DNA of 49,178 nt, from NCBI GenBank assembly GCA_011959285.1, contig BLLW01000024.1, forward strand, positions 1 through 49,178, given 5' to 3'. The notes below the pieces were generated by a model. That model worked only from the letters and a program-made list of their open reading frames with translations, was not told the origin of the DNA and made no database searches. Below are positions 25,132-40,372 of this stretch, one piece after another; the first letter of the stretch is position 1; each line of letters opens with the position of its first letter. This DNA comes from Lachnospiraceae bacterium (lineage in GTDB: Bacteria; Bacillota; Clostridia; Lachnospirales; Lachnospiraceae). Both the position numbers and the translations under genes were made by a program.

Positions 25132-26013
25132 TTACTCCTTCAGCCCTGAATAGATGATTCCCTGTTCCAGATAATCCTGCCCCATCACGAATACGAACAC
25201 CGCCGGTATCAACATGATCACGCTGACGCAAAAGGCATATCCCGCCTGCCCTAAAGTAATCTCCGGCAGGTACAGGGAAAGCGGCCATAAGGCTTTTTCT
25301 TCCAAAAAAGCCATAGGCTGTTCCATCAAATTCCAGTATTCCAAAAAACCCAGCACCATGGCAGAGAGCAGACCGCTTTTTCCTAGGGGAAGCCCTAATT
25401 TAACAAAAATCGCAAGTTCGCCAGCGCCGTCGATCCGCGCCGCCTCCAAAATCTGGGGCGGGATACTCCGAAATCCCCCGTAGGATAAGAAAACCGGAAA
25501 GGTGGAAAAGACTGCCGGAAGAATAATCGCCTGATGGGTGTTTAACAAGTGCAGCTTATTTAATACCAGATAACTGGAAAGCATGGTCACCTGAAAGGGC
25601 AGAAGCATCAGCACCACATAAAGGGCGAACAATGCCCTGCTTCCCTTTACCGGATAAACGGCAAAGCCCCACGCCCCGGGGACTGCCACCAGGAGCTGTC
25701 CTGCCAGAATGCATCCTGCCAGTTTCATGGAATTCCAGAACAATACAAAAAACTGAGGCGTTTCAAACAAAAGCTTTTTATAATTTGCAAAGGATGGATA
25801 ATCCGGCATCATCTTCCAGCTGATAAACTCTGCTCTCTCCGCGAACATTGCTCTAAGATATCCTGAAAGTTCATAGGTATCCATCAGGGAACCCGACAGT
25901 AAAAGCAAAAGCGGCAGGATTACCAGCACCGTGGGAATCAGCAGCAGAAAAAGGGCAAAGCCTTTTTCCGCATTTTTTATTATTTTTTGTTCTTTTATTT
26001 TAAAGCCTGTCAT
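25132..26013 (-). CDS. Carbohydrate ABC permease, MalG-type
   Basis: A 293-residue permease with six membrane segments. The EAA loop (EAARIDGAGELAIFVKLGLPLG) is the contact site for the ATPase. MalG-type length and topology, with a signature QVTMLSSYLVLNKLHLLNTH. It begins one base after the MalF-type gene and would pair with it to form a heterodimeric channel. Confidence 0.92.
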   Translation of the reverse strand: MTGFKIKEQKIIKNAEKGFALFLLLIPTVLVILPLLLLLSGSLMDTYELSGYLRAMFAERAEFISWKMMPDYPSFANYKKLLFETPQFFVLFWNSMKLAGCILAGQLLVAVPGAWGFAVYPVKGSRALFALYVVLMLLPFQVTMLSSYLVLNKLHLLNTHQAIILPAVFSTFPVFLSYGGFRSIPPQILEAARIDGAGELAIFVKLGLPLGKSGLLSAMVLGFLEYWNLMEQPMAFLEEKALWPLSLYLPEITLGQAGYAFCVSVIMLIPAVFVFVMGQDYLEQGIIYSGLKE

Positions 26014-26014
26014 T

Positions 26015-26878
26015 TTATCCTTCTCCTTTATCCCACAGCCTTTGCAGCAGAAGGATCACCATCATCAGAAAGCCGCCTGTGCACACCGCCGCTGCCGCCA
26101 TTTTATCCAGTTCCAGATTCACGAACCAGTTGTTGAACAAATGCTGCAGAAGGTAAATACTCTTATCTGGATAAGCCCCCGCTGTAAGGTACGCCTCCCG
26201 ATAAATCTTAAAGGAGTTCAGAAAGGACAGCACAACTATCGTGTAAAGGCTTCCTTTCAGATTAGGCAGAATCACATACCAAAGCCGCTGCCATTTTCCC
26301 GCGCCGTCCACCCGTGCCGCCTCCAAAAGATGGACCGGGATGCTTAAAATGCCCGCCATCCACAAAATAACAGTATAGCCCATGTTTTTCCATACGTAGC
26401 TTCCTGTGAGCACCCAGAAAGCATCCCCCGATCCTAAATACTCTCTATGCACCTCTCCCCACAGTCCCGTCCACGCGCCCAGGCTGGTGAGAAACAGGTT
26501 CAAAAACCCCTGCTTGTAAAACGTCATTTTCCACACCAGCACAATGGTTGCCGTGGGCATGGCAAATGGGAATAGATAAAGAGATTTGATCCATCCTTTC
26601 TTTTTAAGACCACAGAGCAGCAACGCTGCTGCAAATCCTGACAGCACCAAGAGCGGTATGCCCACCAACGTAAATCGGAATGTGTTCTTCACTGCCAGCA
26701 AAAATGCCTGATTTTGAAAAACGGACTGGTAATTTTTAATTCCGTTAAAGTCTCCCGTCACTGCCTCTAAGAACGACCTGCGCACCACATCTCCAAAAGG
26801 CGCCAGCACAAAGAGCAGGATTCCCGCAAATCCGGGGAAGACAAAGAAGCAGAAAAATCTTGTTTTCTTTTTTGCCAT
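26015..26878 (-). CDS. Carbohydrate ABC permease, MalF-type
   Basis: A 287-residue permease with six membrane segments, EAA loop EAARVDGAGKWQRLWYVILP and the N-terminal FFCFFVFPGFAGILLFVLAPF. It follows the large binding-protein gene after 12 bases. No ATP-binding subunit lies in this operon, so the pair must use a shared MsmK-type ATPase encoded elsewhere or serve another role. Confidence 0.92.
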   Translation of the reverse strand: MAKKKTRFFCFFVFPGFAGILLFVLAPFGDVVRRSFLEAVTGDFNGIKNYQSVFQNQAFLLAVKNTFRFTLVGIPLLVLSGFAAALLLCGLKKKGWIKSLYLFPFAMPTATIVLVWKMTFYKQGFLNLFLTSLGAWTGLWGEVHREYLGSGDAFWVLTGSYVWKNMGYTVILWMAGILSIPVHLLEAARVDGAGKWQRLWYVILPNLKGSLYTIVVLSFLNSFKIYREAYLTAGAYPDKSIYLLQHLFNNWFVNLELDKMAAAAVCTGGFLMMVILLLQRLWDKGEG

Positions 26879-26890
26879 AAAACCGCCTCT

Positions 26891-29380
26891 CTACTCCGAC
26901 ATATAGATTGCAAGCTGCTGCCAGATGGCATCTAAGGTCTCCTCAAGGCTTTGACCGCCCTGTATATACTTTGCGCCCTCTTCAAACACTGCCTCCTCAA
27001 AAACAGTATCCTCGATATAAGGGGTGTCCGCACTTTCCATCCATCCCTCAAGGGTCTTTATTTCCTCCTCATCCGGGAAATAGACATCCAGATTCACTTC
27101 CACACCATCCTCATCTACCATTGCCATCGACCCATACTGATTGTTTTCACCCAGATATTCTTCTTCCGGTGTAAAGAGTTCTTCAAGCGCCTCTTTATTG
27201 ACGGCTAGCCCGCCCAACGCGCACTGATTTTCTTTGCCCAGGAACGCCTTCAGGAAATCCACCGCTAATTCCTTTTTGGAGGATGAGGCGCTGATGCCCA
27301 GCATGGTCTGAGGCACAAAGATGTTGCTGCAAAGTCCGGTCATAGGCACCAGCAGCGTATCCTCGTATCCCTTTGCCTTGGCGGCGGAAGTGATATCAAA
27401 ATAGCCATAAGGGTATGTGGTCATACCTGCCATGAACTGGGTATAATCCCCCACGTACTCTAAGGTATTTAGACCATACAGGGAAAGCTCGTATTCCCAT
27501 TTATCTCCATACAGCTCTGAACACCAGCTGCCGGAATCGTTATACCTGTCTATGCTCTTTTGAGAGATGCCATCCATCTGCGCATCGTAGATTCTTTTAA
27601 TCTGCACAAGGAATGCTTCCACTGCTTCCCGGTCTATTTCGCCGTTGTCCTTTTTCCATGCGGGTGCACTTGCCACGGCAAAGACCTTCATAATTCCTTT
27701 TTCGGAACAAATACCCAGGATATCTTTTTCGGGATGATCCGCCCGAATCTGTTCCACTTCGTCCGCCACAGTGACAAGATCTTTCATCCCTGCAACATAC
27801 TGTTCTCTCCCCAGCATAACCGGAAGGGCTACCTGTCCTGGCGCAGCATAAATACCGGTATAGGCGCTATCCTCTCTCTTCAATGCCTGAAAAAGATTTT
27901 CAAACAGTTCTTCCTCCTTAGAAAGTCCCTCTATCGTGCCGCTTAAATCCAGAAGCAGTCCCTTTTCGATGTAGGAATCCATGGGAAGTTCATCCAGCAT
28001 CAAAAGATCGGGACCTTCCCCCGCCATGATTTCTGTATTCAACTTTTTGAGCGCATCCTCTCTGGTAATACCAGTGGTTATGCCGCTGCCCTCTGCCATG
28101 CCAATCTCATATTCCACAAATACGTCAGGATGGCTGACCTGATAGAGAGAAATTGCCGTCCTAAGGTCATAGCTTTCCTCAAGACTGTATAATTTTAATG
28201 TCTTGCTGGGAACAGAAGGCATATCAGGGTCGAAGGAAAATCTCACTAATTTGCCGCTGTTAAAGACGGCAAGAAATACTTCCTCTTCCAGCATAACCAT
28301 ATCTTTGATGCCATATTGAGGACTTCCCAGACGGGAAAGCGCGCCGTCAATCAGCTGCTCCACCCCTTCTTCGCCGATCACATGACGGTGCAGTCCTTTT
28401 TTACCTGCCAAATATAACGCGCCCTCTGTGTCAAAGAAATACGTAAGGTCATACCAGCTTCCGCCATTAAATCCCCGCTCGCCGTACTGCTCCTCCACAA
28501 ACGCCTTAAGTACAGAATCTTCTATGTATTCCTTTTGATCCATGTCATAAATGAGCGGGGTCTTAAAATCATACCCGTCTATGATCATCTTATTTTTGCT
28601 GAACTGAATCTGCATGGGTCTGCCCTCCAGCGTAAGATAAGACTCCGTGCTGCCATCCTCTTTGACTTCGTAAATCGTATCCCCATAGGTGGTTACGAAA
28701 ATCCTTCCGGTATCCGACATCCAGATTCTGTTAGGGTACATTTCATCTTCTGTAACAGAAAGGGTAATTGGGATGACTGTTCCATCCGCCTTGACCAGCG
28801 CACACTCCGGCGACAGATTGAATACGGAATCGGATTCCTGTGCATCCTCTTCCTCCTCTGCGCCGCCTTCACTTCCTTCTCCCTCGGCACCTGCTGTGCT
28901 GCCTTCGCTTCCGTCTTCTTCCGCATCTGCTGTAGTGTCTGCGCTTCCTTCCTCTTCCCCATCTTCTGCAACATCTTCCCCAGCATGATTTCTTGCCTCG
29001 TAGTCATCGTAGATAATTCCCAAGCTGCCGTCTTCTGTCATCTGTACATCCATGACATAGGTCCTACTCAGTTTGTCTTCCAGCCATCCACTGTTCCCAC
29101 TTTCCCATGTGGTCCCATTATCCTTAGACTTTAGGACACCCATCTGACGGTCCGTGATCAGCAATGTTCCATCTGAAAATCTTCTCATTCCGCTGACGGT
29201 TCCCACCATTTCGGCTAAATCAATCTCCTCCTCCGCATACCGCCCCATGGCAATGTCCGGCTCCCCGCCGGTGGGCGCTGTGCTGCTGCTTCCTTCCGTC
29301 ACGCTGGTACAGCCTGCCGCCAATGTCATCAACGCTGCCATGAGCAGACAGATAAATCTTTTGCCTGATTTTTGCTTCAT
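26891..29380 (-). CDS. Large extracellular solute-binding lipoprotein with N-terminal propeller-like domain
   Basis: About 830 residues, twice the usual length for this family. Start ATG 29380 (RBS GGAAGGAG) gives a signal peptide with lipobox TLAAGC. Residues of about 50-400 contain segments like MGVLKSKDNGTTWESGNSGW, typical of BNR or propeller repeats, interrupted by an acidic low-complexity stretch (about 130-190) built of imperfect E-G-S-x-G-x repeats. The C-terminal half is a type 1 extracellular solute-binding domain (KLNTEIMAGEGPDLLMLDEL, GISASSSKKELAVDFLKAFL). The extra domain may sense or hold a ligand outside the cell. First gene of the BlaI-type-operator operon. Confidence 0.85.
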   Translation of the reverse strand: MKQKSGKRFICLLMAALMTLAAGCTSVTEGSSSTAPTGGEPDIAMGRYAEEEIDLAEMVGTVSGMRRFSDGTLLITDRQMGVLKSKDNGTTWESGNSGWLEDKLSRTYVMDVQMTEDGSLGIIYDDYEARNHAGEDVAEDGEEEGSADTTADAEEDGSEGSTAGAEGEGSEGGAEEEEDAQESDSVFNLSPECALVKADGTVIPITLSVTEDEMYPNRIWMSDTGRIFVTTYGDTIYEVKEDGSTESYLTLEGRPMQIQFSKNKMIIDGYDFKTPLIYDMDQKEYIEDSVLKAFVEEQYGERGFNGGSWYDLTYFFDTEGALYLAGKKGLHRHVIGEEGVEQLIDGALSRLGSPQYGIKDMVMLEEEVFLAVFNSGKLVRFSFDPDMPSVPSKTLKLYSLEESYDLRTAISLYQVSHPDVFVEYEIGMAEGSGITTGITREDALKKLNTEIMAGEGPDLLMLDELPMDSYIEKGLLLDLSGTIEGLSKEEELFENLFQALKREDSAYTGIYAAPGQVALPVMLGREQYVAGMKDLVTVADEVEQIRADHPEKDILGICSEKGIMKVFAVASAPAWKKDNGEIDREAVEAFLVQIKRIYDAQMDGISQKSIDRYNDSGSWCSELYGDKWEYELSLYGLNTLEYVGDYTQFMAGMTTYPYGYFDITSAAKAKGYEDTLLVPMTGLCSNIFVPQTMLGISASSSKKELAVDFLKAFLGKENQCALGGLAVNKEALEELFTPEEEYLGENNQYGSMAMVDEDGVEVNLDVYFPDEEEIKTLEGWMESADTPYIEDTVFEEAVFEEGAKYIQGGQSLEETLDAIWQQLAIYMSE

Positions 29381-29444: not shown

Positions 29445-29498
29445 GACTACTACAATAGTCTTTTGTAATAGACTATCACAGTAGTCAATTCATGTCAA
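29445..29498 (-). promoter_or_regulatory. Promoter with twin BlaI-type operators upstream of the lipoprotein operon
   Basis: Minus-strand TTGACA (29493-29498), a 17-base spacer and TAGTCT (29470-29475). Two palindromes of form GACTA-N6-TAGTC lie at 29445-29460 and 29471-29486, separated by 10 bases; the upstream one fills the space between the -35 and -10 boxes. Sequence and spacing are the same as in front of blaI (40319-40372). Confidence 0.82.
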
Positions 29499-29500
29499 CC

Positions 29501-29536
29501 AAAAATAAAAAAGTACCCTGCTTTCACAGAATACTT
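29501..29536 (-). terminator. Terminator of the ten-gene amidoligase operon
   Basis: CAGAATACTT (29527-29536) and AAGTACCCTG (29511-29520) pair with two internal mismatches on the minus strand, followed by TTTTTTATTTTT. It lies 30 bases after the last M14-family stop and just upstream of the BlaI-type promoter. Confidence 0.72.
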
Positions 29537-29566
29537 TCTTCAAACCAAAAGGCTCTATAAATACAC

Positions 29567-30508
29567 TTATTTCACACCAAAAGGCTCTTTTACGACTTTT
29601 ATGACTGCAGAATTTGCATAAGTAAGAGGCTCATCATGAATAAAAAAGATTTTTGAATCAACCGGTGCGTACAGAGTCTCCATAATTTCACCCTCATATG
29701 GCTGAATAATATCGGCAACAGGCTGCCCCGCTTCTACCTTTTCCCCCGCCCTGACTAGCGACTCAAAAATTCCTGACTTGGCGGTCCGCACCGAAATCAT
29801 ATCCGTATCATAAAGAACCGTAGACGCAATGACCTCAGGTGCATTGTATTTTACAATTCCCATCTGGGAACAGAAATTCAGAACTGACAGAACCGCCTTC
29901 CCTGCTCCATTACGGTCTATCCTTGAAGTAGTCGTCGTATACACTGAAAATGCCTGCGTATTCCAGACCTGCCAATTATAATTCAGCGTTGCTGTATCGT
30001 AAGGTCTCACTTTCCGAATCACCACATAAGGCAGCCCGAATAATTTTGCAATCTCTGCGCTGCTGTATCCCTCATCCATAATCCTTACATGGGGTACAAA
30101 TTCCCCCGGCATATAGAAAGATGTGAACTGTATACCTAATGCATACTCCGAAGCTTCCCGGAACACCCCTTCGGCAATCCGCTGTGTCGTTTCTCCAAGA
30201 TGATAACCCGGAAACATCCTGTTGATATCTGTATTATCCGTTGGCCAGAATCTCTTTTGAATATTCATAGAGTAAGGGTTGATGGAAGGGATAATCAGAA
30301 TCTTCTTTCCTTTTGTAATCCGCTTTTCCTCTTCCAGCTGCCTGAACTTTTTGATCAGCTGGGAGCAGCAGTAAATCTGCTGTACTTCATTGCCTCTGGA
30401 ACTTCCCACAATGCAAACTGCATTTTCTCCCTCGCCGAACTCATATCCTGTAATTCTGAAATCATCGCGGTACATTCCTTTAATTTCATAGAGGATTCTT
30501 GTCTGCAT
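29567..30508 (-). CDS. AstE/aspartoacylase-like protein, zinc ligands lost
   Basis: A 313-residue paralog of the gene just upstream. The family (M14-related succinylglutamate desuccinylase/aspartoacylase) uses an H-x-x-E and a second His to bind zinc. Here the first motif reads GSSRGNEV (Arg38 in place of His, Glu41 kept) and the second reads GIQFTS (Gln127 for His), so two of three ligands are replaced. The rest of the fold (FWPTDNTDINRMFPGYHLG, C-terminal barrel KVEAGQPVADIIQPYEG) is kept. It may be a non-catalytic partner of its paralog. Starts at the last base of the preceding gene's stop. Confidence 0.8.
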   Translation of the reverse strand: MQTRILYEIKGMYRDDFRITGYEFGEGENAVCIVGSSRGNEVQQIYCCSQLIKKFRQLEEEKRITKGKKILIIPSINPYSMNIQKRFWPTDNTDINRMFPGYHLGETTQRIAEGVFREASEYALGIQFTSFYMPGEFVPHVRIMDEGYSSAEIAKLFGLPYVVIRKVRPYDTATLNYNWQVWNTQAFSVYTTTTSRIDRNGAGKAVLSVLNFCSQMGIVKYNAPEVIASTVLYDTDMISVRTAKSGIFESLVRAGEKVEAGQPVADIIQPYEGEIMETLYAPVDSKIFFIHDEPLTYANSAVIKVVKEPFGVK

Positions 30509-31452
30509 TATTCATAGACCTCCCGTCTTAATAAACGCCCCATTAAAGAACCCTCATCCACGATCGGATAATCACGTATCGTAAACAGGATTCCATCTGC
30601 CGGCGCCTTCACTTCATCCAAAATTACCCCATGTAACGGATCAGCAATCACACCGATTACTTCTCCTCTTTTCAGCTTTTCCCAGTGATGTACCTTTGGC
30701 ACGAACAGACCTCCTGTGGGAGCATTCAAATAACATACATCATCCGGATTTCTTGACACAATCGGATTTCTTGGACGCTTCACATCTCCTTTCCAGATTC
30801 CCATCTTACGCATCAAATTCAAAATGCCGTCTGTGAGCTGATTTCCATAGCTCTGTGTGAGGCGCATTCCCACTCCCATTTCAACCACCAGCGTGGGCGT
30901 CCCTGTGCTGTTCAAGCTGTATGCAAAAGTAGATTCCAGCACCGTACTTGCCCCATGCACCCAGATGAAATCCACATTCAGTTCTTCGGCAAGAGGCACG
31001 AGCTTTGCCTCATGCAGTTCATTGATCCGTATCTGCGGAATCTCAGTCAGATAAATATTGCTGGCATGGATATCAATCACACAATCTGATCCGGATACAT
31101 CTTCCATGATGCCTGCAGCCAGATATTCTGTCATATTTCCATCAATATTTCCCGGGAACAGACGGTTCATATCCAGGTCAAATGCCGGTATCCCTCTCGT
31201 AATGGAATCAATCCCCAATGGATTCATTGCCGGATAAATATCTACGATTCCTGATAATTTTTCCTTTTCTTCCATGATTCTTCTTTGCAGTTCAAAGCAT
31301 ACATACTGTCCTTCCAATTCATCTCCGTGAATGCCGGTGACTATGCTGATACGCTTTTCTGTCCCGGAACACATTTCAGGCATCAGACGGTTTCTCTTAA
31401 TCTGAAGTTCTTCGTCCACGGGCAGACTTACAGATGTTATAATATCTACCAT
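30508..31452 (-). CDS. AstE/aspartoacylase-like metallohydrolase
   Basis: A 314-residue M14-related amidohydrolase. All zinc ligands are visible: TGIHGDELEG (His42, Glu45) and VIDIHASN (His129). The C-terminal domain (GLFVPKVHHWEKLKRGEVIG, HGVILDEVKAPADG) is the lid and beta-barrel found in this family. It should cleave an N-acyl amino acid or acyl-peptide. In the present block it may remove an acyl or aminoacyl group from the product of the ATP-grasp enzyme, or from the imported compound. Tandem with a degenerate copy. Confidence 0.86.
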   Translation of the reverse strand: MVDIITSVSLPVDEELQIKRNRLMPEMCSGTEKRISIVTGIHGDELEGQYVCFELQRRIMEEKEKLSGIVDIYPAMNPLGIDSITRGIPAFDLDMNRLFPGNIDGNMTEYLAAGIMEDVSGSDCVIDIHASNIYLTEIPQIRINELHEAKLVPLAEELNVDFIWVHGASTVLESTFAYSLNSTGTPTLVVEMGVGMRLTQSYGNQLTDGILNLMRKMGIWKGDVKRPRNPIVSRNPDDVCYLNAPTGGLFVPKVHHWEKLKRGEVIGVIADPLHGVILDEVKAPADGILFTIRDYPIVDEGSLMGRLLRREVYE

Positions 31453-31470
31453 TTTTCTTCCTCTTTCACT

Positions 31471-32277
31471 TTAAATTTCCTTTACAGCTACTGCTACCTG
31501 CTGGCACTGCTGACCGCCGCCTACAACGATACCTCTGTTTAACGCGCAGTCCGCTGCGTCTCTTCCTATCCCCACATAAATATAATCTTCGTTTACAAGC
31601 TGATTGTTTGTGGGATCTAATCCATACCATTTTCCTTCCCACAAAACCTCGACCCACGCGTGGGACTCTCCTTCCCCTAGCATGAATCCTGCCGCATATC
31701 TTGCCGGAATTCGGTTCATCCGGCACAGCGAAATCAGGATATGTGCATAGTCCTGACATACCCCGCGCTTAAGTCGCCACGCATCTTCGGATGTGGTCGT
31801 CACATTTGTACAATTTTTCTCATACCGGAAATCTTCGTAAAGACATTGCATGAGTTTTACCGCCTGACCGTAGGGCGTTCCATCCGTTCTGCCTGCAAGC
31901 TTCTTTGCAAGCTCACCGCAGTAACTCTCCAATTCTTTCCCTGCCGCAGTCAGTCCGCGCAGATTAAGGTACATCCCTGGCAGTTCTCCCTTCCTCTGCC
32001 TGTTGCTATCCGCACAGCCCGTCACTGCTGTTCCGCATACGCGGCAGGAAAAAACATCATGCGCCTTTTCAATCGTGCCATATACCATCTGATTTCCAAA
32101 AGAATCCTGCCCTCTGCTCCTGTAATTTTCAGGCATAACTTCTATCTTTAACGATTCAATTCTTTGTCTGTCCATATCTGCAGGTACACACTTTAACGTA
32201 TAATGGCAATTACTTACAGGTTCACTGTAAGTAATTGTCATACAATAAATAAAATCCAGTCTTTTCATTACAGCCAT
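31471..32277 (-). CDS. Transglutaminase-like domain protein
   Basis: A 268-residue protein with the N-terminal beta domain of bacterial transglutaminase-like proteins and a papain-fold C-terminal half. The catalytic triad is clear: Cys174 in RGVCQDYAH, His206 in SHAWVEV and Asp221 in GLDPTNNQ. No signal peptide, so it is cytoplasmic. It could hydrolyse or transfer amide bonds. With alpha-E and circularly permuted ATP-grasp genes beside it, it forms a trio that recurs in many bacteria without an established function. Confidence 0.88.
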   Translation of the reverse strand: MAVMKRLDFIYCMTITYSEPVSNCHYTLKCVPADMDRQRIESLKIEVMPENYRSRGQDSFGNQMVYGTIEKAHDVFSCRVCGTAVTGCADSNRQRKGELPGMYLNLRGLTAAGKELESYCGELAKKLAGRTDGTPYGQAVKLMQCLYEDFRYEKNCTNVTTTSEDAWRLKRGVCQDYAHILISLCRMNRIPARYAAGFMLGEGESHAWVEVLWEGKWYGLDPTNNQLVNEDYIYVGIGRDAADCALNRGIVVGGGQQCQQVAVAVKEI

Positions 32278-32320
32278 GTTTCTTCCAACATCCTATACGC
32301 AGTCTTAAGGAACATGTTTT

Positions 32321-32983
32321 TTAAACAATATGTTCCACCTCATTTACAATCTTATAATAATCCACTTCGGGCTGCGTGACAAGCTTCTGTAAATTGGTTA
32401 AGGATTCCTCATGATAATTGATTCTGCTCCTCATGACTCTGGGCACCAGCCGGTTAATCTCCCTCTGCAATTCTTTTACCGGTGCGCCAAGTCTGGCATA
32501 CAGATCCACTCTTTCCACTCTTTTCCCTGCCTTAATCATATTTCGGACCTGTTCAGAATCAATCTGGTCATCAGCAATGCCCCAGAAAGCAAGAATATTA
32601 TCGATTACTCTCTGCATATCAATAAGAGGCGATCTGCTGATTTTTGCCCGATTCATATCATAGACAGCCAGCTGCACATAGGACAGCGTCTCGGAACCGA
32701 TTTCCTCACGAAGAACGATTGCATTGTCATACGCATGCAGAAGATTACTGATGATAGAATCCGGGTTTGCCTCATCAAAGGGGTATGCCTTCTGAAACAC
32801 TTCCTTCGATCCGTAAATATCCGGTATATCTATCATTTTGCAAAAGCTCTGATAGCTGTCCGCAATCTCGTCAATCATGCTGTCAAAGCTTTTTGAATAT
32901 AAACGAAGAGTGGTGTAAACCCTCTCTGAATACCTCCCAAGCCAAAACAGCCGGTCTGCCTGATCTACTGAAATAATACCCAT
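32321..32983 (-). CDS. Alpha-E domain protein
   Basis: A 220-residue all-helical protein starting MGIISVDQADRLFWLGRYSERV, the signature of the alpha-E family (COG2307), shorter than many members (about 310). It has several conserved charged positions (GRYSERVYT, LREEIGSETLSYV) but no known activity. It overlaps the ATP-grasp gene by 19 bases, indicating coupled translation and likely physical association with that enzyme. Confidence 0.85.
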   Translation of the reverse strand: MGIISVDQADRLFWLGRYSERVYTTLRLYSKSFDSMIDEIADSYQSFCKMIDIPDIYGSKEVFQKAYPFDEANPDSIISNLLHAYDNAIVLREEIGSETLSYVQLAVYDMNRAKISRSPLIDMQRVIDNILAFWGIADDQIDSEQVRNMIKAGKRVERVDLYARLGAPVKELQREINRLVPRVMRSRINYHEESLTNLQKLVTQPEVDYYKIVNEVEHIV

Positions 32984-34284
32984 GTGTCTTTAAATCCTCC
33001 TCCCTGTGATGAATTGACAATAAACGAATCCGGATTTCTGGAAAACCGCGTCAATCCGCTCTTCCAGACCATCGGTTCATCCGCCATGAGCACAAATGCA
33101 CGTAAGTCCGCTTTGCGTGCAACGACTTCGTCTCCTTCCATAATATCAATATCGCAAAAATCTATGACTTCCTGTGCGATGAACCTTCTTGGCTCTGCTT
33201 TCAGCAATGCGACAAATCTTTCCTTTTCTTCCTTCGTCATGCTGCTGCCAAAAACAACGCCATAACCGCCGGCTTCCGCCACATCTTTAAGCACCAGCTC
33301 ATCAAAATGTTCCAGCACATATTTCATATCCTCCTCATAAAAAGGCAGATAGGTAGGCGCATTGCTTAGGACGGGCTCCTCCCCCAGATAATACCGGATC
33401 ATCTTGGGAACAAAATAATAAATTCCTTTGTCATCCGCAATTCCGTTTCCCGGCGCATTCAGCAATGCCACATTTCCCTTGCGATACACATCATAAATAT
33501 GCGGGATGCCTATGACTGACTCCGGATTAAAGTTCATAGGATCCAGATATTCATCCGATATGCGGCGGTATACGGCTCCCACCCGTTCCAATTCTCCGGC
33601 ATAATTTATGTAATATAACTTATCATCTACTACTTTTAAGTCTGCCCCGCTGACCAAGTGCGCGCCTGTCTTTTCTGCCAGATAGGAGTGTTCAAAGTAT
33701 GCCGCATTGCACCTTCCCGGCGTAAGGATAACAGTATGCCCTCCCGCATTTACGTAATCAATGGTTTTCCTCAAAAGTTCTGCGTAATTGCGGTTATCCT
33801 CCAGATGAAACTTCTGGAATGTTTCGGGGCTGCTGCGCCTGCATAAATCTCTGGCAATCATAGGATAAGATGCCCCGGATGGTACACGCAGATTATCCTC
33901 CAGGATATACCAATTCCCATTTTTTCCCTGCACCAGATCGATCCCGGATATATGCGGGTAAATTCCTTTTATTGGCTGTACGCCGTCGCATTCCGCTAAA
34001 TATCCGCTGGATGCAAATATAAAATCTTCCGGAATGACATGATCCTTCACTATTTTCTTTTCACTGTATATATCGTTCAAAAAATAGTTCAGCGCCAATA
34101 CCCTCTGCTTCAATCCTTTTTCCAGATAATCAAATTCCTGCTTTTTAATGATTCGCGGAATGGCATCAAACGGAAACATCTGCTCTTTGAACTGATTATT
34201 TTTGTAAATACCAAACTTTACTCCATATCTTGCCAACAGCTCATTCACCGTATCCGTATGTTTCAATAAATCCATATCGTACAT
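32965..34284 (-). CDS. Circularly permuted type 2 ATP-grasp ligase
   Basis: About 439 residues of the COG2308-type ATP-grasp family. Typical segments are SGIDLVQGKNGNWYILEDNL, the MIARDLCRRSSPETF helix, LTPGRCNAAYFEHSYLAEK and LVLKDVAEAGGYGVVFG, which holds an ATP-binding lysine and a glycine-rich loop; the C-terminus is AFVLMADEPMVWKSGLTRFS. ATP-grasp enzymes activate a carboxylate as acyl phosphate and join it to an amine. Start ATG 34284 has RBS GGAGGG; a longer start overlapping the amidotransferase gene lacks one. Confidence 0.87.
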   Translation of the reverse strand: MYDMDLLKHTDTVNELLARYGVKFGIYKNNQFKEQMFPFDAIPRIIKKQEFDYLEKGLKQRVLALNYFLNDIYSEKKIVKDHVIPEDFIFASSGYLAECDGVQPIKGIYPHISGIDLVQGKNGNWYILEDNLRVPSGASYPMIARDLCRRSSPETFQKFHLEDNRNYAELLRKTIDYVNAGGHTVILTPGRCNAAYFEHSYLAEKTGAHLVSGADLKVVDDKLYYINYAGELERVGAVYRRISDEYLDPMNFNPESVIGIPHIYDVYRKGNVALLNAPGNGIADDKGIYYFVPKMIRYYLGEEPVLSNAPTYLPFYEEDMKYVLEHFDELVLKDVAEAGGYGVVFGSSMTKEEKERFVALLKAEPRRFIAQEVIDFCDIDIMEGDEVVARKADLRAFVLMADEPMVWKSGLTRFSRNPDSFIVNSSQGGGFKDTWVLFQ

Positions 34285-34303
34285 AAAAGTCTCCCTCCAT
34301 TGC

Positions 34304-35014
34304 TTATTTTTCTTCTGCCGCCCTGACAAATTGTTTCAAAATCTTCTTACTATTCTCATCCGTTTTGTAAGAAAATTCAGGGTGCCATTGTATACCCCAC
34401 ACGAAGCTTTTTTCCGGCATATACACAGCTTCTGCTAAACCATCCTCAGCATATGCCATTACCTTAAGCCTGTCAGATAGAATATGAATTGCCTGATGGT
34501 GGTAACTGTTTACCGCTATCTCCGGCTTTTGAATAAGTTGGTATAGCGGCAATTCCCTGACTAATCTCACCTGATGGACAGGCATGTCATAAGGCGGCTT
34601 CTGATGATGCTCAAGCGAAGAATCTTTCTGTGTCGGCAGATCCTGATACAAAGTTCCTCCCAAAACAACATTCATAAATTGAATTCCCCTGCATATGCCA
34701 AGCAGTGCTTTATCTTGATCAAGCGCCATGGAAAAAAGCTTCTTTTCCATGACATCTCTTTCTTTGCAGCACACACCGCACTCTTTTACTGCACATTCCC
34801 CATACAATTCCGGCGACACATCGTGTCCTCCTGTCAGCAGGAATCCATCACAGATTTCACACAACTGTTCCAGCTCTGTATCGTCTTCTGTGAGCGGGAG
34901 CATCACAGGGATTCCTCCAGCCTCTTCAATACCTTCCATATAGCCCGGAAGCATCCACAAGCTATCCTTTTTTTCATCGTATAATGGAATCAATCCAATA
35001 AGCGGTTTACTCAT
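34304..35014 (-). CDS. Class I glutamine amidotransferase-like hydrolase (PuuD-type)
   Basis: A 236-residue gamma-glutamyl-hydrolase of the PuuD group. The nucleophile is Cys108 in LLGICRGIQ, and the other residues are His211 and Glu213 in GIQWHPEF. TGGHDVSPELYGE is the substrate loop. The family cleaves gamma-glutamyl amides such as gamma-glutamyl-GABA. Start ATG 35014 is preceded by GAGGGC. It could undo a gamma-glutamyl bond made by the ATP-grasp ligase or present on an imported compound. Confidence 0.87.
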   Translation of the reverse strand: MSKPLIGLIPLYDEKKDSLWMLPGYMEGIEEAGGIPVMLPLTEDDTELEQLCEICDGFLLTGGHDVSPELYGECAVKECGVCCKERDVMEKKLFSMALDQDKALLGICRGIQFMNVVLGGTLYQDLPTQKDSSLEHHQKPPYDMPVHQVRLVRELPLYQLIQKPEIAVNSYHHQAIHILSDRLKVMAYAEDGLAEAVYMPEKSFVWGIQWHPEFSYKTDENSKKILKQFVRAAEEK

Positions 35015-35039
35015 TATTTTGCCCTCTTTTCCTGCCAGT

Positions 35040-35624
35040 TTACTTTTGCGCAAGACTGCAGATAATCTCTACTGCCGTGTCTATTCCTATCTTTTCGGTA
35101 TTAATTGAAAGATCATAAAAAGATGCCATTCCAAACACCGTATCTGTATAAAAAGCGCAGTATTTTTTTCTTGCATGATCGACAGACTGCAGTTTCTCAG
35201 CCAACTGCATTTCAGACATATCCGGAAATTGCTCCTTCATACGTTTTATTCTGTAATAAGACGGCGCATGAATGAACACGTGCAGCGTATAGTCGTATTC
35301 CTTTAAAATACTGCTGGCGTTTCTTCCTACAATGACACAGTTTCCCTTCTCTGCTATTTTTTGAATAACCTGTTTCTGGGCTTTAAACAAACGTTCATTC
35401 AGAGGTTTATTGTAGAAATCAAATAAACTCTGTGCAAAACCAAAATTAACCGGTACTTTTTCGTCATATAATGCAAGTTCCTGTACATCCAGATTTGACT
35501 GCTTAGCCGTCTCTAAGATAAGTTCTTTGTCGTAAAATGCATATCCTAACCGTTCCGCTGTCAGTTGCCCGATGCTTCCCCCTCCTGCGCCAAATTCCCT
35601 GCTTATCGTTATAATCTTTTTCAT
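35040..35624 (-). CDS. Cytidylate kinase-like protein
   Basis: A 194-residue P-loop kinase-like protein of the AAA_26/cytidylate-kinase-like family. The loop is SREFGAGGGSIG (residues 8-19), followed by FYDKELI, and VIVGRNASSIL near residue 95. Proteins of this family often accompany amino-acid transporters in Lachnospiraceae but their substrate is unknown. It is 16 bases downstream of the GlnQ-type ATPase gene and 25 bases upstream of the PuuD-type gene. Confidence 0.85.
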   Translation of the reverse strand: MKKIITISREFGAGGGSIGQLTAERLGYAFYDKELILETAKQSNLDVQELALYDEKVPVNFGFAQSLFDFYNKPLNERLFKAQKQVIQKIAEKGNCVIVGRNASSILKEYDYTLHVFIHAPSYYRIKRMKEQFPDMSEMQLAEKLQSVDHARKKYCAFYTDTVFGMASFYDLSINTEKIGIDTAVEIICSLAQK

Positions 35625-35640
35625 AATAATTCCCTTGTCC

Positions 35641-36381
35641 TTACAACACCTTATTCAGAAAATCTATTGTCCTGCTTTCCTGCGGATGCTCCAGTACCTG
35701 CTGCGGCGTCCCCTGCTCCACGATATACCCTCCATCCATAAATACGATTCTGTCCGCGACTTCCTTGGCAAATCCAATTTCATGAGTTACAATGATCATT
35801 GTCATACCTGCCTGTGCCAGTTCCTTCATTACTGCAAGCACTTCACCCACCATTTCAGGGTCAAGGGCTGATGTAGGTTCATCAAACAACATAATATCCG
35901 GATTCATTGCTAACGCCCTTGCAATAGCCACCCGCTGTTTCTGTCCCCCTGATAACTGGTTCGGATACGCCTGCGCCTTTCCTTCCAGCCCCACCCTTTT
36001 CAGCAATTCCATGCCGGTCTGATACGCCTCATCTTTGGTCGCCTTTTTTAACTGAATAGGCGCCATGGTAATATTTTTGATAACGTTCATGTGCGGAAAT
36101 AAATTGAAATGCTGGAATACCATCCCGATATTTTCCCGCACTTTATTCATATCTGTCCTTTTATCCGTTATCTCCCTTCCATCAACGAAAATAGTCCCTC
36201 CGGTTGCCTCTTCAAGCCGGTTAAGGCATCTTAGAAACGTTGATTTTCCGCTTCCCGAAGGTCCAATCAGAACGACTACTTCCCCTTCCGTAATCTCTAT
36301 GTCGATTTCCTTCAAAACTTCAAGTTTGCCGAAGCTTTTCTTTAAATTCCGGACCTGAATCCTTCCATTACAATTCTCCAC
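35641..36381 (-). CDS. glnQ: Polar amino-acid ABC transporter ATP-binding protein
   Basis: A 246-residue ATPase with Walker [10 protein letters not shown] (residues 40-48), signature [15 protein letters not shown] and Walker [31 protein letters not shown] is typical of polar amino-acid importers. The start is a GTG with RBS AGGAGG, overlapping the permease gene by 14 bases. Confidence 0.93.
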
Positions 36382-37039
36382 GTTTCAGCCTCCTCTCCAG
36401 CTTCTTTGCCACTTTACTAAGGGTAATGATAACAACCATATACATGACTCCCACAATTGCCCACACCTGAAGATTCAGAAAAGTATTTCCTGCAACATTT
36501 TTTCCGGTGTTGACCAGCTCGGGGAATCCAATAACCGAAAGTATGGAAGTATCTTTCAAGGTAATGATAAACTGATTGATAATCGAAGGAATCATCGTTT
36601 TTATCGCCTGCGGAATAACAACGAGACGCATGCTTTTACCATAGGACAGACCAAGGCTGCGGCTCGCTTCCATCTGTCCCTTGTCCACGCTTTCTATGCC
36701 TGCCCTTATGATTTCCGCCATGTATGCGCCGCAGTTCATAGAGAGCGTAATGATTCCTGCCGACAATGCCGACAGCCGCAATCCTGAAAATCCCAGCATC
36801 TTGGCTGCCTGAGGAATTCCGAAGTAAACAAAATAAGCCAGTACAATCAGCGGCACACCCCGTATTGCATCTACAAAAACAGTACCAAACAAATTTAATA
36901 TTCTTTTCTTTCCAACATTAAACAATGCAACGACAAGCCCAATAATCATTGCTGCCAATAGAGACAATGCGCATAGAAGCAATGTGTTACCCATAGACTT
37001 TAAAAGCATTAATCCGTATACCCGAATAATCTTAAGCAT
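36368..37039 (-). CDS. Polar amino-acid ABC transporter permease
   Basis: A 223-residue HisM/GlnP-type permease with five to six membrane segments. The ATPase-contact loop is [39 protein letters not shown] is the family signature. It is separated from the binding-protein gene by 143 bases containing a strong hairpin. Confidence 0.92.
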
Positions 37040-37133
37040 CAGCCGGTCTCTCCTTTATTCCTCACTAAGCTCCGCTCTGCTTTACAAATTGCCTTATTGC
37101 GCCAGACTGCAATCCGCTTTACAGAATGAAACA

Positions 37134-37163
37134 GGGGAATGCCGTCAGCACACAGCATTCCCC
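37134..37163 (-). promoter_or_regulatory. Intercistronic hairpin after the amino-acid-binding-protein gene
   Basis: GGGGAATGC (37134-37142) and GCATTCCCC (37155-37163) form a perfect 9-base stem about 20 bases past the binding-protein stop. No T-run follows, so it fits a transcript stabiliser or partial terminator that raises binding-protein output over permease. Confidence 0.62.
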
Positions 37164-37182
37164 ATTGAATCCCCTTGTCTTT

Positions 37183-37998
37183 CTATTTCAAATATTTATC
37201 AAGTATTTCCTGGTATATCCCGTTTTCCTTTATATTAGCCAGACCCGCATTGAACATGTCCAGCAATTCCTGATTGGATCCATCCATAATCGCAAATCCA
37301 TACGGCGCTGAACCGCTTTCTGCATCCGCTCCTATCAGTTGCTTCAATGCTACTTTGTCCAATGTTATATATGCAAGAGTAATCGGCGTATCATCCACAC
37401 AGGCAGCACTGTTTCCATTAATGACATCTTGATACATATCTGTGGATGTTTCCATTGTTGTAATCGTAAAGCCATATTGATCCATAAGACTTTCCGCATA
37501 AGTCTTACTTGCAGAACCAATCTTCACCACCACATTTTTGCCTTCCAAGTCCTCCAAGGATGTAATATCACTATCTGATGCTGCAAAAAAGGACTGAGTC
37601 GCATCATAATATCCATCTGAAAAAATCCATCCCATCTCCTTGCGTTCATCGTTAATCGTCGCTCCTGCCATCAGCGCATCCGCCTGACCTACCTGCACGG
37701 CAGCAATCCCTGCATCCCAGCCAATTGACTGCAGATCATATTTAAAGCCCTGATCCTCTGCCACTGCTGCCAGAATATCTACATCAATCCCAACAAAGTC
37801 CCCATTTGCATCGGTATACTCAAAGGGACGGAATGCGGTATCTGTTGCGACTACCCAGACCTTTTCATCCTTCGTCGCCTCCGCGTCTTCTTCCTGTACC
37901 TGCCCGCTGACCGGCTCCTGCGGGGATGAATCACCGCAGCCCAATAATGAAACTGTCATTGATGCAATTGCCAAAAAAGCCATCATTTTTCTTTTCAT
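37183..37998 (-). CDS. Amino-acid-binding lipoprotein (SBP_bac_3)
   Basis: A 271-residue family 3 solute-binding lipoprotein. Signal peptide with lipobox SLLGC, an acidic linker, then the binding domain VWVVATDTAFRPFEYTDANG and FVGIDVDILAAVAEDQGFKY. Residues that contact the alpha-amino and carboxyl groups of an amino acid (MAGATINDERKEMGWIFSD) are present. Predicted ligand is a polar amino acid or a small derivative. First gene of the ten-gene block, downstream of a promoter and terminator-like hairpin. Confidence 0.92.
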   Translation of the reverse strand: MKRKMMAFLAIASMTVSLLGCGDSSPQEPVSGQVQEEDAEATKDEKVWVVATDTAFRPFEYTDANGDFVGIDVDILAAVAEDQGFKYDLQSIGWDAGIAAVQVGQADALMAGATINDERKEMGWIFSDGYYDATQSFFAASDSDITSLEDLEGKNVVVKIGSASKTYAESLMDQYGFTITTMETSTDMYQDVINGNSAACVDDTPITLAYITLDKVALKQLIGADAESGSAPYGFAIMDGSNQELLDMFNAGLANIKENGIYQEILDKYLK

Positions 37999-38040
37999 AA
38001 TAATCCTCCTTTTTAAACAACGAATGCATCCGCCCTTACA

Positions 38041-38079
38041 AAAAAAATAAAGGCAACGGATTCATGACTCCGTTGCCTT
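38041..38079 (-). terminator. Promoter-proximal terminator/leader hairpin of the ten-gene block
   Basis: AAGGCAACGGA (38050-38060) and TCCGTTGCCTT (38069-38079) make a perfect 11-base stem with an 8-base loop, followed on the minus strand by TTATTTTTTT. The likely transcription start of the promoter at 38089-38117 falls within a few bases of the stem, so most transcripts could end after about 45 bases. Confidence 0.78.
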
Positions 38080-38088
38080 ATGCTGTTT

Positions 38089-38117
38089 AATTTATCACTC
38101 ATATATTCAGTTGTCAA
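38089..38117 (-). promoter_or_regulatory. Promoter of the ten-gene block
   Basis: Minus-strand TTGACA (38112-38117), a 17-base spacer and TAAATT (38089-38094). Confidence 0.75.
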
Positions 38118-38159
38118 GAAAATCTTTTTGGGAAGAACCAATTGCTCTTTCGCTTTCTT

Positions 38160-38198
38160 TCACAAAAGCATCGCCATATAAACCGACAGATGAATCAC
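38160..38198 (-). other. Possible remnant small gene with promoter and RBS
   Basis: A TATAAT (minus strand, 38237-38242) and AAAGGAGG precede a GTG-initiated 12-codon frame (IHLSVYMAMLL) ending at 38160. The start resembles short hydrophobic holin-like toxin peptides, but the frame is too short for one. Shown only because promoter and RBS are both good. Confidence 0.25.
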
Positions 38199-38266
38199 AT
38201 CCTCCTTTCCCTGCGGATAAGGAAATCAATTTCTATATTATACCAAAAAGGCACTTCTAAATTTAT

Positions 38267-39847
38267 CTACCACCATAACTCTGAATATGCTCTAGATTCT
38301 TTTGGCGATAAATGAATCAGACCGACAATCTCTCCTTCCTCATTCCGGTCAGTGACTACCCCCGTGTCGCCATAAGTACCGTCTGCCGACTGGCTCGCCA
38401 ACCTTCCCCTGAACCCGGTTTCCACTTCATTATCTGCCCAAAAATAAATAGGTTCTCCTTCATAATAAAGCTGGTAATCGCTATCACTTATTTCTGCACT
38501 GAGTCCATATATACCAAATTCATCAACCAATCTTTCAATAAACTGTCTCGTACTGTCTGTCAGATACGCACTTTCCTCCACCGTTACTGCTTCCGACGAA
38601 GCGCTTACCGCATACTCTATACCTTCACGCTCATTTGCCTGTTCGATTACGTCCTGCGCATTCGTCGTGTACTCCGCAGTTCCATAATCCTGAATAACCG
38701 TTACCGCCTGTATCGCATCGGCTGCATATTCCTGTTCCTGCAAAGAGGAAGGCATATCCTCCGCCACATTTACCGTCGTCCCCTCTGCAAAAGCCACATT
38801 GATCTTTCCGCTGTCAGTTTCCGATACGTCAAATACCGCTGACCGCATAGCATAAACCTCGGAATTCGTGACAAAAAAAGCAGTTAAAGCCATACTGACC
38901 GCAAAAACAGCTGCCAACACACCTGCAGGGGTCGTCTTTTTGAATGTCATAACCGCTACAATCCGCTCTTTCACGGCATTTTTTCCAAATCCCAGCCCTG
39001 TGCCGAACCCCAAATTCCTGCACGATGCCATGGTCAGCAGTGCCATCGCATAATCCCGTCTTTCTCCGCCGCTATGGCGAACCACAGTCTCGTCGCACAA
39101 AAGCTCCATATCCCTGTTAAAGAGCAGATACATCACCCACACAAGGGGATTGAACCAGTGAATGCACAGCGCCAGATGGGCAATCAGTTTTTTCAAATTA
39201 TCCCGATGTTTTATATGCACCCATTCATGCCGAAGACAGAAGCTCATCTCCTCATCTTCCTTTAAGGAAAATCCTTTGGGAAAGACAATCGCCGGATGTA
39301 TCACCCCATAAGTCACAGGTGTTGCTGTCCGGTCGGATATCTGAAATCTGATATCCCGCAGCTGCTTTTTGTCCTTCTCTTCTTTTGCTGCCAGCAAAAT
39401 CAGCCTTTCCTTCTCCTGTTCCGGCATGGGAAGTCCTTCCCTGAACAGCCTGCTGTCCCGCACATAAAGAAAAACGGAACCCAAAAGCATAGCAGCTGTC
39501 CCCAGCAGGTAAATAGTTCTCACGATAGTACCTGCATCCATCCCTTCCGCTTTATCAAAACTTATATTGGCAATTTCAGAGGTCTGCATTTCTCCAAAAT
39601 GTCCATCGTAAGTTGCAATCGTAACATGATACGCTTTATTGTTTATAACCAGACTTCCTGCATCCGCCCAAAGCGTCGGAACGGCAGGAGGAAGCGGGAT
39701 TGCCAAGGAAACCAGCAGACGCAAAATAGCAATTTCCCAAAGCAGAACCATCACTTTCTTTGGCAGGCGGTGTATCAACAGGGAGCGAAACAAAACAATC
39801 CCTAATATTAAAATTCCCGCCGTCACACTCATCTGTATCAGACTCAT
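38267..39847 (-). CDS. blaR1: BlaR1/MecR1-type M56 membrane metallopeptidase without penicillin-sensing domain
   Basis: A 526-residue membrane protein. The zinc-peptidase motif is HEWVH (residues 207-211) with the second Glu in LLCDETVV (about 252). Four membrane segments are visible, the last at about 305-325. The outer C-terminal domain of about 200 residues is rich in Asp, Glu and Thr and lacks the S-x-x-K and K-T-G motifs of a penicillin-binding domain. It should sense something other than a beta-lactam, probably envelope damage or a peptide, and cleave the BlaI-type repressor encoded 21 bases upstream. Confidence 0.87.
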   Translation of the reverse strand: MSLIQMSVTAGILILGIVLFRSLLIHRLPKKVMVLLWEIAILRLLVSLAIPLPPAVPTLWADAGSLVINNKAYHVTIATYDGHFGEMQTSEIANISFDKAEGMDAGTIVRTIYLLGTAAMLLGSVFLYVRDSRLFREGLPMPEQEKERLILLAAKEEKDKKQLRDIRFQISDRTATPVTYGVIHPAIVFPKGFSLKEDEEMSFCLRHEWVHIKHRDNLKKLIAHLALCIHWFNPLVWVMYLLFNRDMELLCDETVVRHSGGERRDYAMALLTMASCRNLGFGTGLGFGKNAVKERIVAVMTFKKTTPAGVLAAVFAVSMALTAFFVTNSEVYAMRSAVFDVSETDSGKINVAFAEGTTVNVAEDMPSSLQEQEYAADAIQAVTVIQDYGTAEYTTNAQDVIEQANEREGIEYAVSASSEAVTVEESAYLTDSTRQFIERLVDEFGIYGLSAEISDSDYQLYYEGEPIYFWADNEVETGFRGRLASQSADGTYGDTGVVTDRNEEGEIVGLIHLSPKESRAYSELWW

Positions 39848-39868
39848 TTCATACCCTCCTAAATTGTC

Positions 39869-40222
39869 TCAATTCAAGTCATCAATCAGCTTTTTGAGCT
39901 GATCCACTTCCTGCTTCGACAACTTCTTTCCATCCAAAAAGGCAGCAAAAAACTTTTCCTTGGAGCCGTCGAACATCTTATCGATCAGTTCCTCTGTCTC
40001 ATAGTCCTGCACTTCCTGTCTGGAAATCAACGGGCTGCACACAAACCCCGGCTCCTGCCTTTTGATAGCGCCTTTATCCACGCATTTTTTGATGACGGTG
40101 TAGGTAGTGTTCCTGTTCCACCCGGTCTCTTCCTTTAAAATCTTTACAATCTGCCCCGCCGGCATTTCCCCCTCCCGCCAAAGCACTTCCATTACCTTTC
40201 GTTCCGAATCAAATAATTTCAT
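39869..40222 (-). CDS. blaI: BlaI/MecI family repressor
   Basis: A 117-residue winged-helix repressor. KLFDSERKVMEVLWREGEMP and NRNTTYTVIKKCVDKGAIKR are the DNA-binding region, and the C-terminal helices form the dimer domain with the protease-sensitive segment. Start ATG 40222. It would bind the paired GACTA-N6-TAGTC palindromes at 40319-40360 and, by sequence identity, those at 29445-29486. Confidence 0.92.
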   Translation of the reverse strand: MKLFDSERKVMEVLWREGEMPAGQIVKILKEETGWNRNTTYTVIKKCVDKGAIKRQEPGFVCSPLISRQEVQDYETEELIDKMFDGSKEKFFAAFLDGKKLSKQEVDQLKKLIDDLN

Positions 40223-40318
40223 GGTACCTTCATTCCTTTCTCGCACACGACTTCTACCGTCAAATTAACTGTACCTTCATTTCAAATCAAGGCGTTGTTT
40301 CCTGCTATAAAAAAATGT

Positions 40319-40372
40319 GACTACCTAAATAGTCTATATGTTTAGACTATCACAGCAGTCACATCATGTCAA
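40319..40372 (-). promoter_or_regulatory. blaI promoter with twin operators
   Basis: Minus-strand TTGACA (40367-40372), a 17-base spacer and TAGTCT (40344-40349). Palindromes GACTA-N6-TAGTC at 40319-40334 and GACTA-N6-CAGTC at 40345-40360 are separated by 10 bases. Sequence, spacing and position relative to the promoter boxes match those at 29445-29498. Confidence 0.85.

Follow-up and report, generated by a model that had tools for sequence, protein, structure and literature searches.

The 49,178-nucleotide contig BLLW01000024.1 of a Lachnospiraceae bacterium (assembly GCA_011959285.1, positions 1–49,178; hereafter the window) carries the same BlaI-type promoter–operator twice: once before blaI–blaR1, encoding a BlaI/MecI-family repressor and a BlaR1-like membrane protease, and once before an operon for a large lipoprotein, two ATP-binding cassette (ABC) permeases of MalF and MalG type and an HlyD-type adaptor. 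Sequence comparison leads us to propose, with a probability of about 0.85, that blaI and blaR1 act as repressor and antirepressor on two promoters, that of blaI–blaR1 itself and that of the lipoprotein–malF–malG–hlyD operon.

A tandem operator at two promoters

Both copies span 54 bases of the minus strand (29498–29445 for the lipoprotein operon, 40372–40319 for blaI) and share the layout TTGACA-N17-TAGTCT with two 16-bp dyads separated by a 10-base gap (start-to-start step 26), which can also be read as TTGACA-N6-dyad-N10-dyad. The promoter–operator of blaI–blaR1 (40319–40372), identified like its counterpart by sequence reading, genome pattern scan and genus alignment, comprises a −35 element TTGACA (40372–40367), dyad 1 (40345–40360, GACTGCTGTGATAGTC), an extended −10 TG (40352–40351), the −10 hexamer TAGTCT (40349–40344) and dyad 2 (40319–40334, GACTATTTAGGTAGTC), and is located upstream of the blaI ATG at 40222. 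That of the lipoprotein operon (29445–29498) has its −35 TTGACA at 29498–29493, dyad 1 at 29471–29486 (GACTACTGTGATAGTC), TG at 29478–29477, −10 TAGTCT at 29475–29470 and dyad 2 at 29445–29460 (GACTATTGTAGTAGTC); the lipoprotein ATG (29380) follows 64 bases downstream of the operator end. The initial annotation had described this arrangement at both promoters, and it holds except in one detail: three of the four dyads are exact GACTA-N6-TAGTC, and the promoter-proximal blaI dyad, GACTG-CTGTGA-TAGTC, starts with GACTG rather than GACTA (one mismatch). The inner six bases of the promoter-proximal dyad are identical at both sites, as it had claimed, reading TCACAG on the plus strand at 29476–29481 and 40350–40355.

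The exact tandem pair matches only twice in the 4.23-Mb draft genome (317 contigs), both times at the window sites, so that the genome-wide search suggested earlier returned no third exact match. Relaxing the pair pattern to at most three mismatches gives four matches against 13 for a reversed control, and hence only exact pair matches are informative. Single dyads were rejected as evidence: GACTR-N6-YAGTC occurs 12 times in the genome versus 29 times for the reversed control. Four of these 12 belong to the two window operators; around the other eight, no appropriately spaced TTGAC occurs on either strand, and no further exact dyad is present in the locus read. Single dyads are thus at chance level and the pair behind a −35 element is above it.

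Conservation across relatives

A search of named genomes yielded 12 lipoprotein loci (the L035 lipoprotein being given only in part). Four of them (L030, L031, L032 and L037, the last from Parablautia intestinalis D8-82) have the order blaI–blaR1–operator–lipoprotein–malF–malG–hlyD, with a second operator before blaI. At L033 the operator is present with 3.2 kb of contig upstream of it, and the same genome carries blaI with its operator on another contig. In the other seven loci, whose lipoproteins are 43–51% identical, the stretch examined contains no operator and no blaI; the best BlaI in those genomes is 31–59% identical.

We then surveyed 37 genomes of the genus, taking as orthologues BlaI proteins of at least 78% and lipoproteins of at least 54% identity, and as a site both dyads 20–40 bp apart with at most three mismatches in total; five genomes (G215, G224, G230, G246 and G239) correspond by identical coordinates to L030, L031, L032, L033/L093 and L037, respectively, and were counted once. 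A blaI orthologue is found in 20/37 genomes, a lipoprotein orthologue in 20/37 and both in 17/37. Relatives that keep both operons and lack the site, which the initial annotation had named as evidence against itself, were looked for and not found: the site precedes the lipoprotein operon in 17/17 genomes with both (once, in G238, with one mismatch), and it precedes blaI in 14 of the 17. Counting all operons, including that of G223 with its site before malF, 20 of 21 have the site, the exception being G225, where no blaI orthologue was detected. Exact tandem sites number 34 in the 37 genomes, versus one reversed-control match, and 31 of them stand at the two promoter types (19 before the lipoprotein/malF operon, 12 before a blaI orthologue). 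The remaining three lie directly before a BlaI paralogue (G222) or about 2.4 kb (G232) and 8 kb (G240) from BlaI paralogues. The earlier proposal that BlaI represses both promoters gains support from this comparative evidence, above all the 17/17 operon sites, with binding and induction standing as predictions.

Across 200 genomes of the family (one per genus), the pair pattern with at most one mismatch matched four, namely the genome studied here and three others, whose exact dyads lack a correctly spaced TTGAC and whose loci yielded no blaI. The exact-site scan also matched G002, G040 and G289, which were excluded from the genus counts. A suitably spaced TTGAC and, in the loci read, a blaI gene are both missing from G002 and G040. 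In G289, a member of another family, a tandem operator TTGACA-N6-GACTAATGTGTTAGTC precedes a 40% identical BlaI and an M56 gene (locus L118); judged by this locus, the operator architecture extends beyond the family.

Promoter anatomy

Alignment on dyad 1 of 37 promoters (20 operon, 17 blaI), picked on their dyads alone, reveals elements invariant in 37/37: TTGACA at −12, TG at +8/+9 and T at +16 relative to that dyad. A TGn ahead of the −10 hexamer marks extended −10 promoters, and the combined reading here, TTGACA-N14-TGn-TAGTCT, is of this type. We rejected operator specificity as the reason for the identical TCACAG inner bases, since the invariant TG points instead to the extended −10 element as their explanation. 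Across the genus the dyad step ranges between 22 and 29 bp, and the inner bases of dyad 2 vary more, which suggests that BlaI would bind as two separate dimers rather than as one rigid complex. The promoter reading also separates bases kept for RNA polymerase from those kept for the repressor.

Repressor, sensor protease and proposed mechanism

BlaI (39869–40222, minus strand; 117 residues from the ATG at 40222) belongs to the BlaI/MecI family (Pfam PF03965, 2.5e-26, 92.7 bits versus a cut-off of 22.6), and phmmer retrieves MecI and BlaI chains. The paired inverted-repeat operators expected of this family at its own promoter accompany 17 of the 20 genus orthologues (both dyads, at most three mismatches). 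Its Ala94–Phe95 bond aligns with Asn101–Phe102 of MecI/BlaI, and FFAAFL occurs in every one of the 19 orthologues that could be read, G243 being the one of the 20 without a reading.

A second BlaI branch (52–60% identity) is associated with GACTA tandem dyads of step 29–31, at L137:13989 (G240), L124 (G232 C106:20575), L138:181 (G222) and L077. In G222 and L077 these stand before the BlaI paralogue itself, and in G240 they precede a small secreted-looking protein, ~8 kb from the nearest BlaI. The genome studied here has a close paralogue of its own (54%; C56:5571–5897, L013), whose 5′ end is seemingly lost and which adjoins another BlaI–M56 pair.

The BlaR1-like protein (38267–39847, minus strand; 526 residues), characterized by domain search, model and alignment, has an M56 domain at residues 3–298 (146 bits) with HEWVH at 207. 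Its M56 half aligns with Staphylococcus aureus BlaR1, and the best Foldseek matches are BlaR1 chains from cryogenic electron microscopy. All 20 orthologous proteins have the M56 match and an invariant HExxH (H207, E208 and H211). None of the 20 matches the transpeptidase domain (PF00905), the window protein contains no SxxK beyond residue 320, and it scores 84.7 bits with NCBIfam blaR1_generic against a cut-off of 400; by these features it falls outside the BlaR1/MecR1 beta-lactam sensors in the strict sense. In the model, an unreliable, low-confidence linker (326–426) leads to a confident alpha+beta domain of ~100 residues (427–526) with many residues invariant across the 20 orthologues. A profile of this domain gives 40 matches among the 4,938 reading frames of the loci examined, all in loci of the orthologous cluster; the whole-model PDB search returned BlaR1 chains, then weak matches only (E 0.57 and worse), and so taught us nothing on the fold of the C-terminal domain. 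A distinct M56 protein in the same genome does carry a transpeptidase domain (PF00905, 1.7e-35) beside its own BlaI, on contig C18 (L019:631–2427, minus strand; L005) with a TTGTAAT/ATTACA inverted repeat upstream, and this pair is likely to be the genome's true penicillin sensor. A beta-lactam bound in the classical way is therefore an unlikely signal for the window protein. With no penicillin-binding domain found in the sensor, the idea of a sensor, repressor and target set not tied to beta-lactams gains support.

By analogy with the known BlaI/BlaR1 family, BlaI dimers would bind the two dyads of each promoter. Dyad 1 sits in the spacer with its right half-site within the −10 hexamer, so that bound BlaI would exclude RNA polymerase, and dyad 2 would cover the start region. 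The signal would be received outside the cytoplasm by the C-terminal domain of the BlaR1-like protein, whereupon the cytoplasmic M56 protease would cut BlaI, probably near Ala94–Phe95, and both operons would be switched on, yielding a sugar-binding-type lipoprotein, an ABC permease pair and an HlyD-type adaptor. The analogy supplies the steps; the regulation as such is well supported by comparison. More tentatively, the circuit may represent a new class of BlaR1-type receptor, in which the ~100-residue alpha+beta domain stands in for the penicillin-binding sensor, the transporter is induced once M56 has cut BlaI, and the sensed compound is dealt with by the transporter's own lipoprotein and HlyD-type adaptor, closing a loop unrelated to beta-lactams; we find this plausible at somewhat short of even odds.

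The intervening block and the transporter operon

The 11-kb distance between the two promoters, emphasized by the initial annotation, holds for the window and is a local arrangement: of the 17 genomes that have both units, 11 have the end of blaR1 no more than 0.2 kb from the operator, as immediate neighbours. Elsewhere the gap is 0.66 kb (G231), 0.9 kb (G245), 1.85 kb (G238), 4.6 kb (G243) or, in the window, ~8.8 kb, and in G246 blaI–blaR1 and the operon are on different contigs. At L030, whose lipoprotein is 99% identical, ~0.2 kb separates blaR1 from the lipoprotein gene. The window matches this locus for ~23 bases beyond the blaR1 stop and then diverges into a block of other genes (29567–37998, minus strand) that falls outside the proposed regulon and is not found between blaR1 and the operon in L030, L031, L032 or L037. 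The block contains two AstE/AspA-like genes and genes for transglutaminase-like, alpha-E, circularly permuted ATP-grasp, glutamine amidotransferase-like and cytidylate kinase-like proteins and an amino-acid ABC transporter, names checked with Pfam for one AstE/AspA, the ATP-grasp and the SBP_bac_3 gene and otherwise given by sequence reading. The blaR1–operon junction appears from these loci to tolerate insertions, the operator remaining with the operon. Once separated, the operon probably does not rely on read-through from blaI, yet it has retained an operator copy of its own.

The first gene of the operon (26891–29380, minus strand) encodes an 829-residue lipoprotein from the ATG at 29380, with an N-terminal beta-rich, propeller-like part and a C-terminal solute-binding-protein fold, assigned by domain search and model (mean predicted local distance difference test score 75; best PDB match a Clostridium thermocellum sugar-binding protein). 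The modelled solute-binding fold is clear; the propeller is a tentative reading from secondary structure only. Downstream on the same strand lie the permease genes malF (26015–26878; PF00528, 4.3e-13) and malG (25132–26013; PF00528, 6.1e-10) and, last in the operon, the gene for the HlyD-type membrane fusion protein (23809–25101; PF13437, 9.2e-07, with the RND_mfp subfamily below cut-off). A solute-binding protein with two permeases is the make-up of a carbohydrate ABC importer, which this operon may encode, SBP_bac_1 scoring just under its cut-off (24.7 versus 26). The operon has no ATPase gene; ATPase sharing is common among such importers in Firmicutes. An IMG/VR search with the lipoprotein found no relative. 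A terminator-like hairpin from the consensus scan lies directly upstream of the lipoprotein promoter (29507–29540, minus strand), and is weak by itself, with 10 such hairpins found in the region versus 8.0 expected.

Variants of the operon occur among relatives. L131, from the 59% complete genome G223, retains the operator immediately ahead of malF–malG–hlyD but yielded no lipoprotein gene. Loci L038, L039 and L040 have two or three divergent tandem lipoprotein genes before malF–malG–hlyD, and no BlaI sites in the stretch examined.

Weighing the alternatives

Exact sites stand at 18/20 orthologous lipoprotein promoters versus 0/21 paralogous ones (Fisher p = 9e-10; the latter count covers the exact pattern and coordinates only, degenerate sites there not being sought) and in 19/20 genomes with a blaI orthologue versus 4/17 without (p = 1.4e-5), both p values being overstated because the genomes belong to one genus and are related, not independent. 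These counts favour two-target regulation by BlaI; several other observations speak against it. Three of the 20 genomes with blaI (G238, G243 and G213) have no blaI-side site within the limits on spacing and mismatches, and in G231, G217, G223 and G239 that site is degenerate (2–3 mismatches, step 22–23). Two genomes, G236 and G242, carry an operon-side operator but yielded no blaI orthologue; upstream sequence stops at the contig end after ~2.9 kb in G242 and continues for ~11 kb in G236, where it contains no blaI. The P1 residue of the putative cleavage site is A, versus N in the known site. There are 11 BlaI-family matches in the genome, the second paralogue branch adjoins GACTA dyads in other genomes, and cross-regulation by other BlaI paralogues may occur. 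A rival reading would have one or more other paralogues controlling the lipoprotein promoter, with the neighbouring BlaI mainly autoregulating. The truncated C56 paralogue has a very similar recognition region (KNTTYTLIKR versus RNTTYTVIKK), GACTA tandem dyads also precede BlaI paralogues in G222 and G206, and the G236 operator comes without a detected orthologue. We nevertheless consider it improbable, as the site tracks the orthologue in 17/17 genomes, the site-less operon of G225 is accompanied by a 57% paralogue and no orthologue, and, among the ten other BlaI loci, the seven whose upstream regions were inspected show different dyads or none.

Somewhat less improbable, yet still unlikely, is that the pair answers to beta-lactams or to the resulting peptidoglycan damage, the operon serving resistance or repair. 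The missing transpeptidase domain and SxxK motif, and the separate PF00905-bearing protein on C18, speak against this, whereas the BlaR1-like protease half, the assignment of such regulons to a beta-lactam response by the C. thermocellum authors (PMC8457756) and a peptidoglycan fragment reported as trigger in Bacillus licheniformis (PMC3305447) speak for it. Duplication could also yield two near-identical promoters, leaving the second operator as a remnant copied with its promoter and the operon constitutive. This we regard as very improbable: both sites are kept genus-wide though the dyad step varies, the −35, TG and −10 end stay constant, and the paralogous lipoprotein promoters are without the site. 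Regulation of both promoters by BlaI is the reading we retain.

Comparison with known systems

BlaI/BlaR1 systems are known mainly from penicillin resistance; here we describe a genus-wide, clearly bounded candidate regulon whose sensor is not of the penicillin-binding type and whose target is a transporter. With two promoters, one repressor, one receptor and a relative available as a named strain, what BlaR1-like proteins without a penicillin domain sense becomes directly testable. The pairs BlaI–BlaR1 and MecI–MecR1 of S. aureus share with it the BlaI/MecI family, the M56 membrane protease and paired operators. Their sensor is a penicillin-binding domain, whereas here it is a small alpha+beta domain without a match to penicillin-binding proteins, and the target here is neither a beta-lactamase nor such a protein. 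S. aureus BlaR1 cleaves BlaI directly, at Asn101–Phe102, and the repressor controls more than one resistance gene, blaZ and mecA (PMC9834060). In the C18 pair of the same genome BlaI likewise adjoins an M56 protease; it differs in its transpeptidase-type sensor and the long inverted repeat upstream. MalEFG-like carbohydrate ABC transporters resemble the target operon in having a solute-binding fold, two permeases and no ATPase gene in the operon, and differ from it in that the lipoprotein here, of 829 residues, is extended by a beta-rich half at its N terminus and an HlyD-type adaptor gene closes the operon.

The closest regulatory precedent is C. thermocellum (PMC8457756), with the GACTAT motif, autoregulation, blaR1 in the operon and small closed regulons. 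BlaI_1845 (Clo1313_1845) binds GACTAT, four copies of which form two inverted pairs at its own promoter, and BlaI_0696 has three target promoters. BlaI_1845 differs in that it targets only its own operon, which includes a putative peptidoglycan-synthesis gene, and the section consulted describes no lipoprotein, ABC permease or HlyD target. We found no account of the present regulon in the open PMC literature (titles and abstract openings), a body that mostly excludes subscription journals, and do not claim its absence from print. The C. thermocellum precedent means that neither this kind of operator nor the concept of a small BlaI regulon is new; the target and sensor look new: a penicillin-resistance repressor and its membrane protease appear, from their sequences, to have been reused in a gut bacterium and its relatives to switch on an uncharacterized transporter operon.

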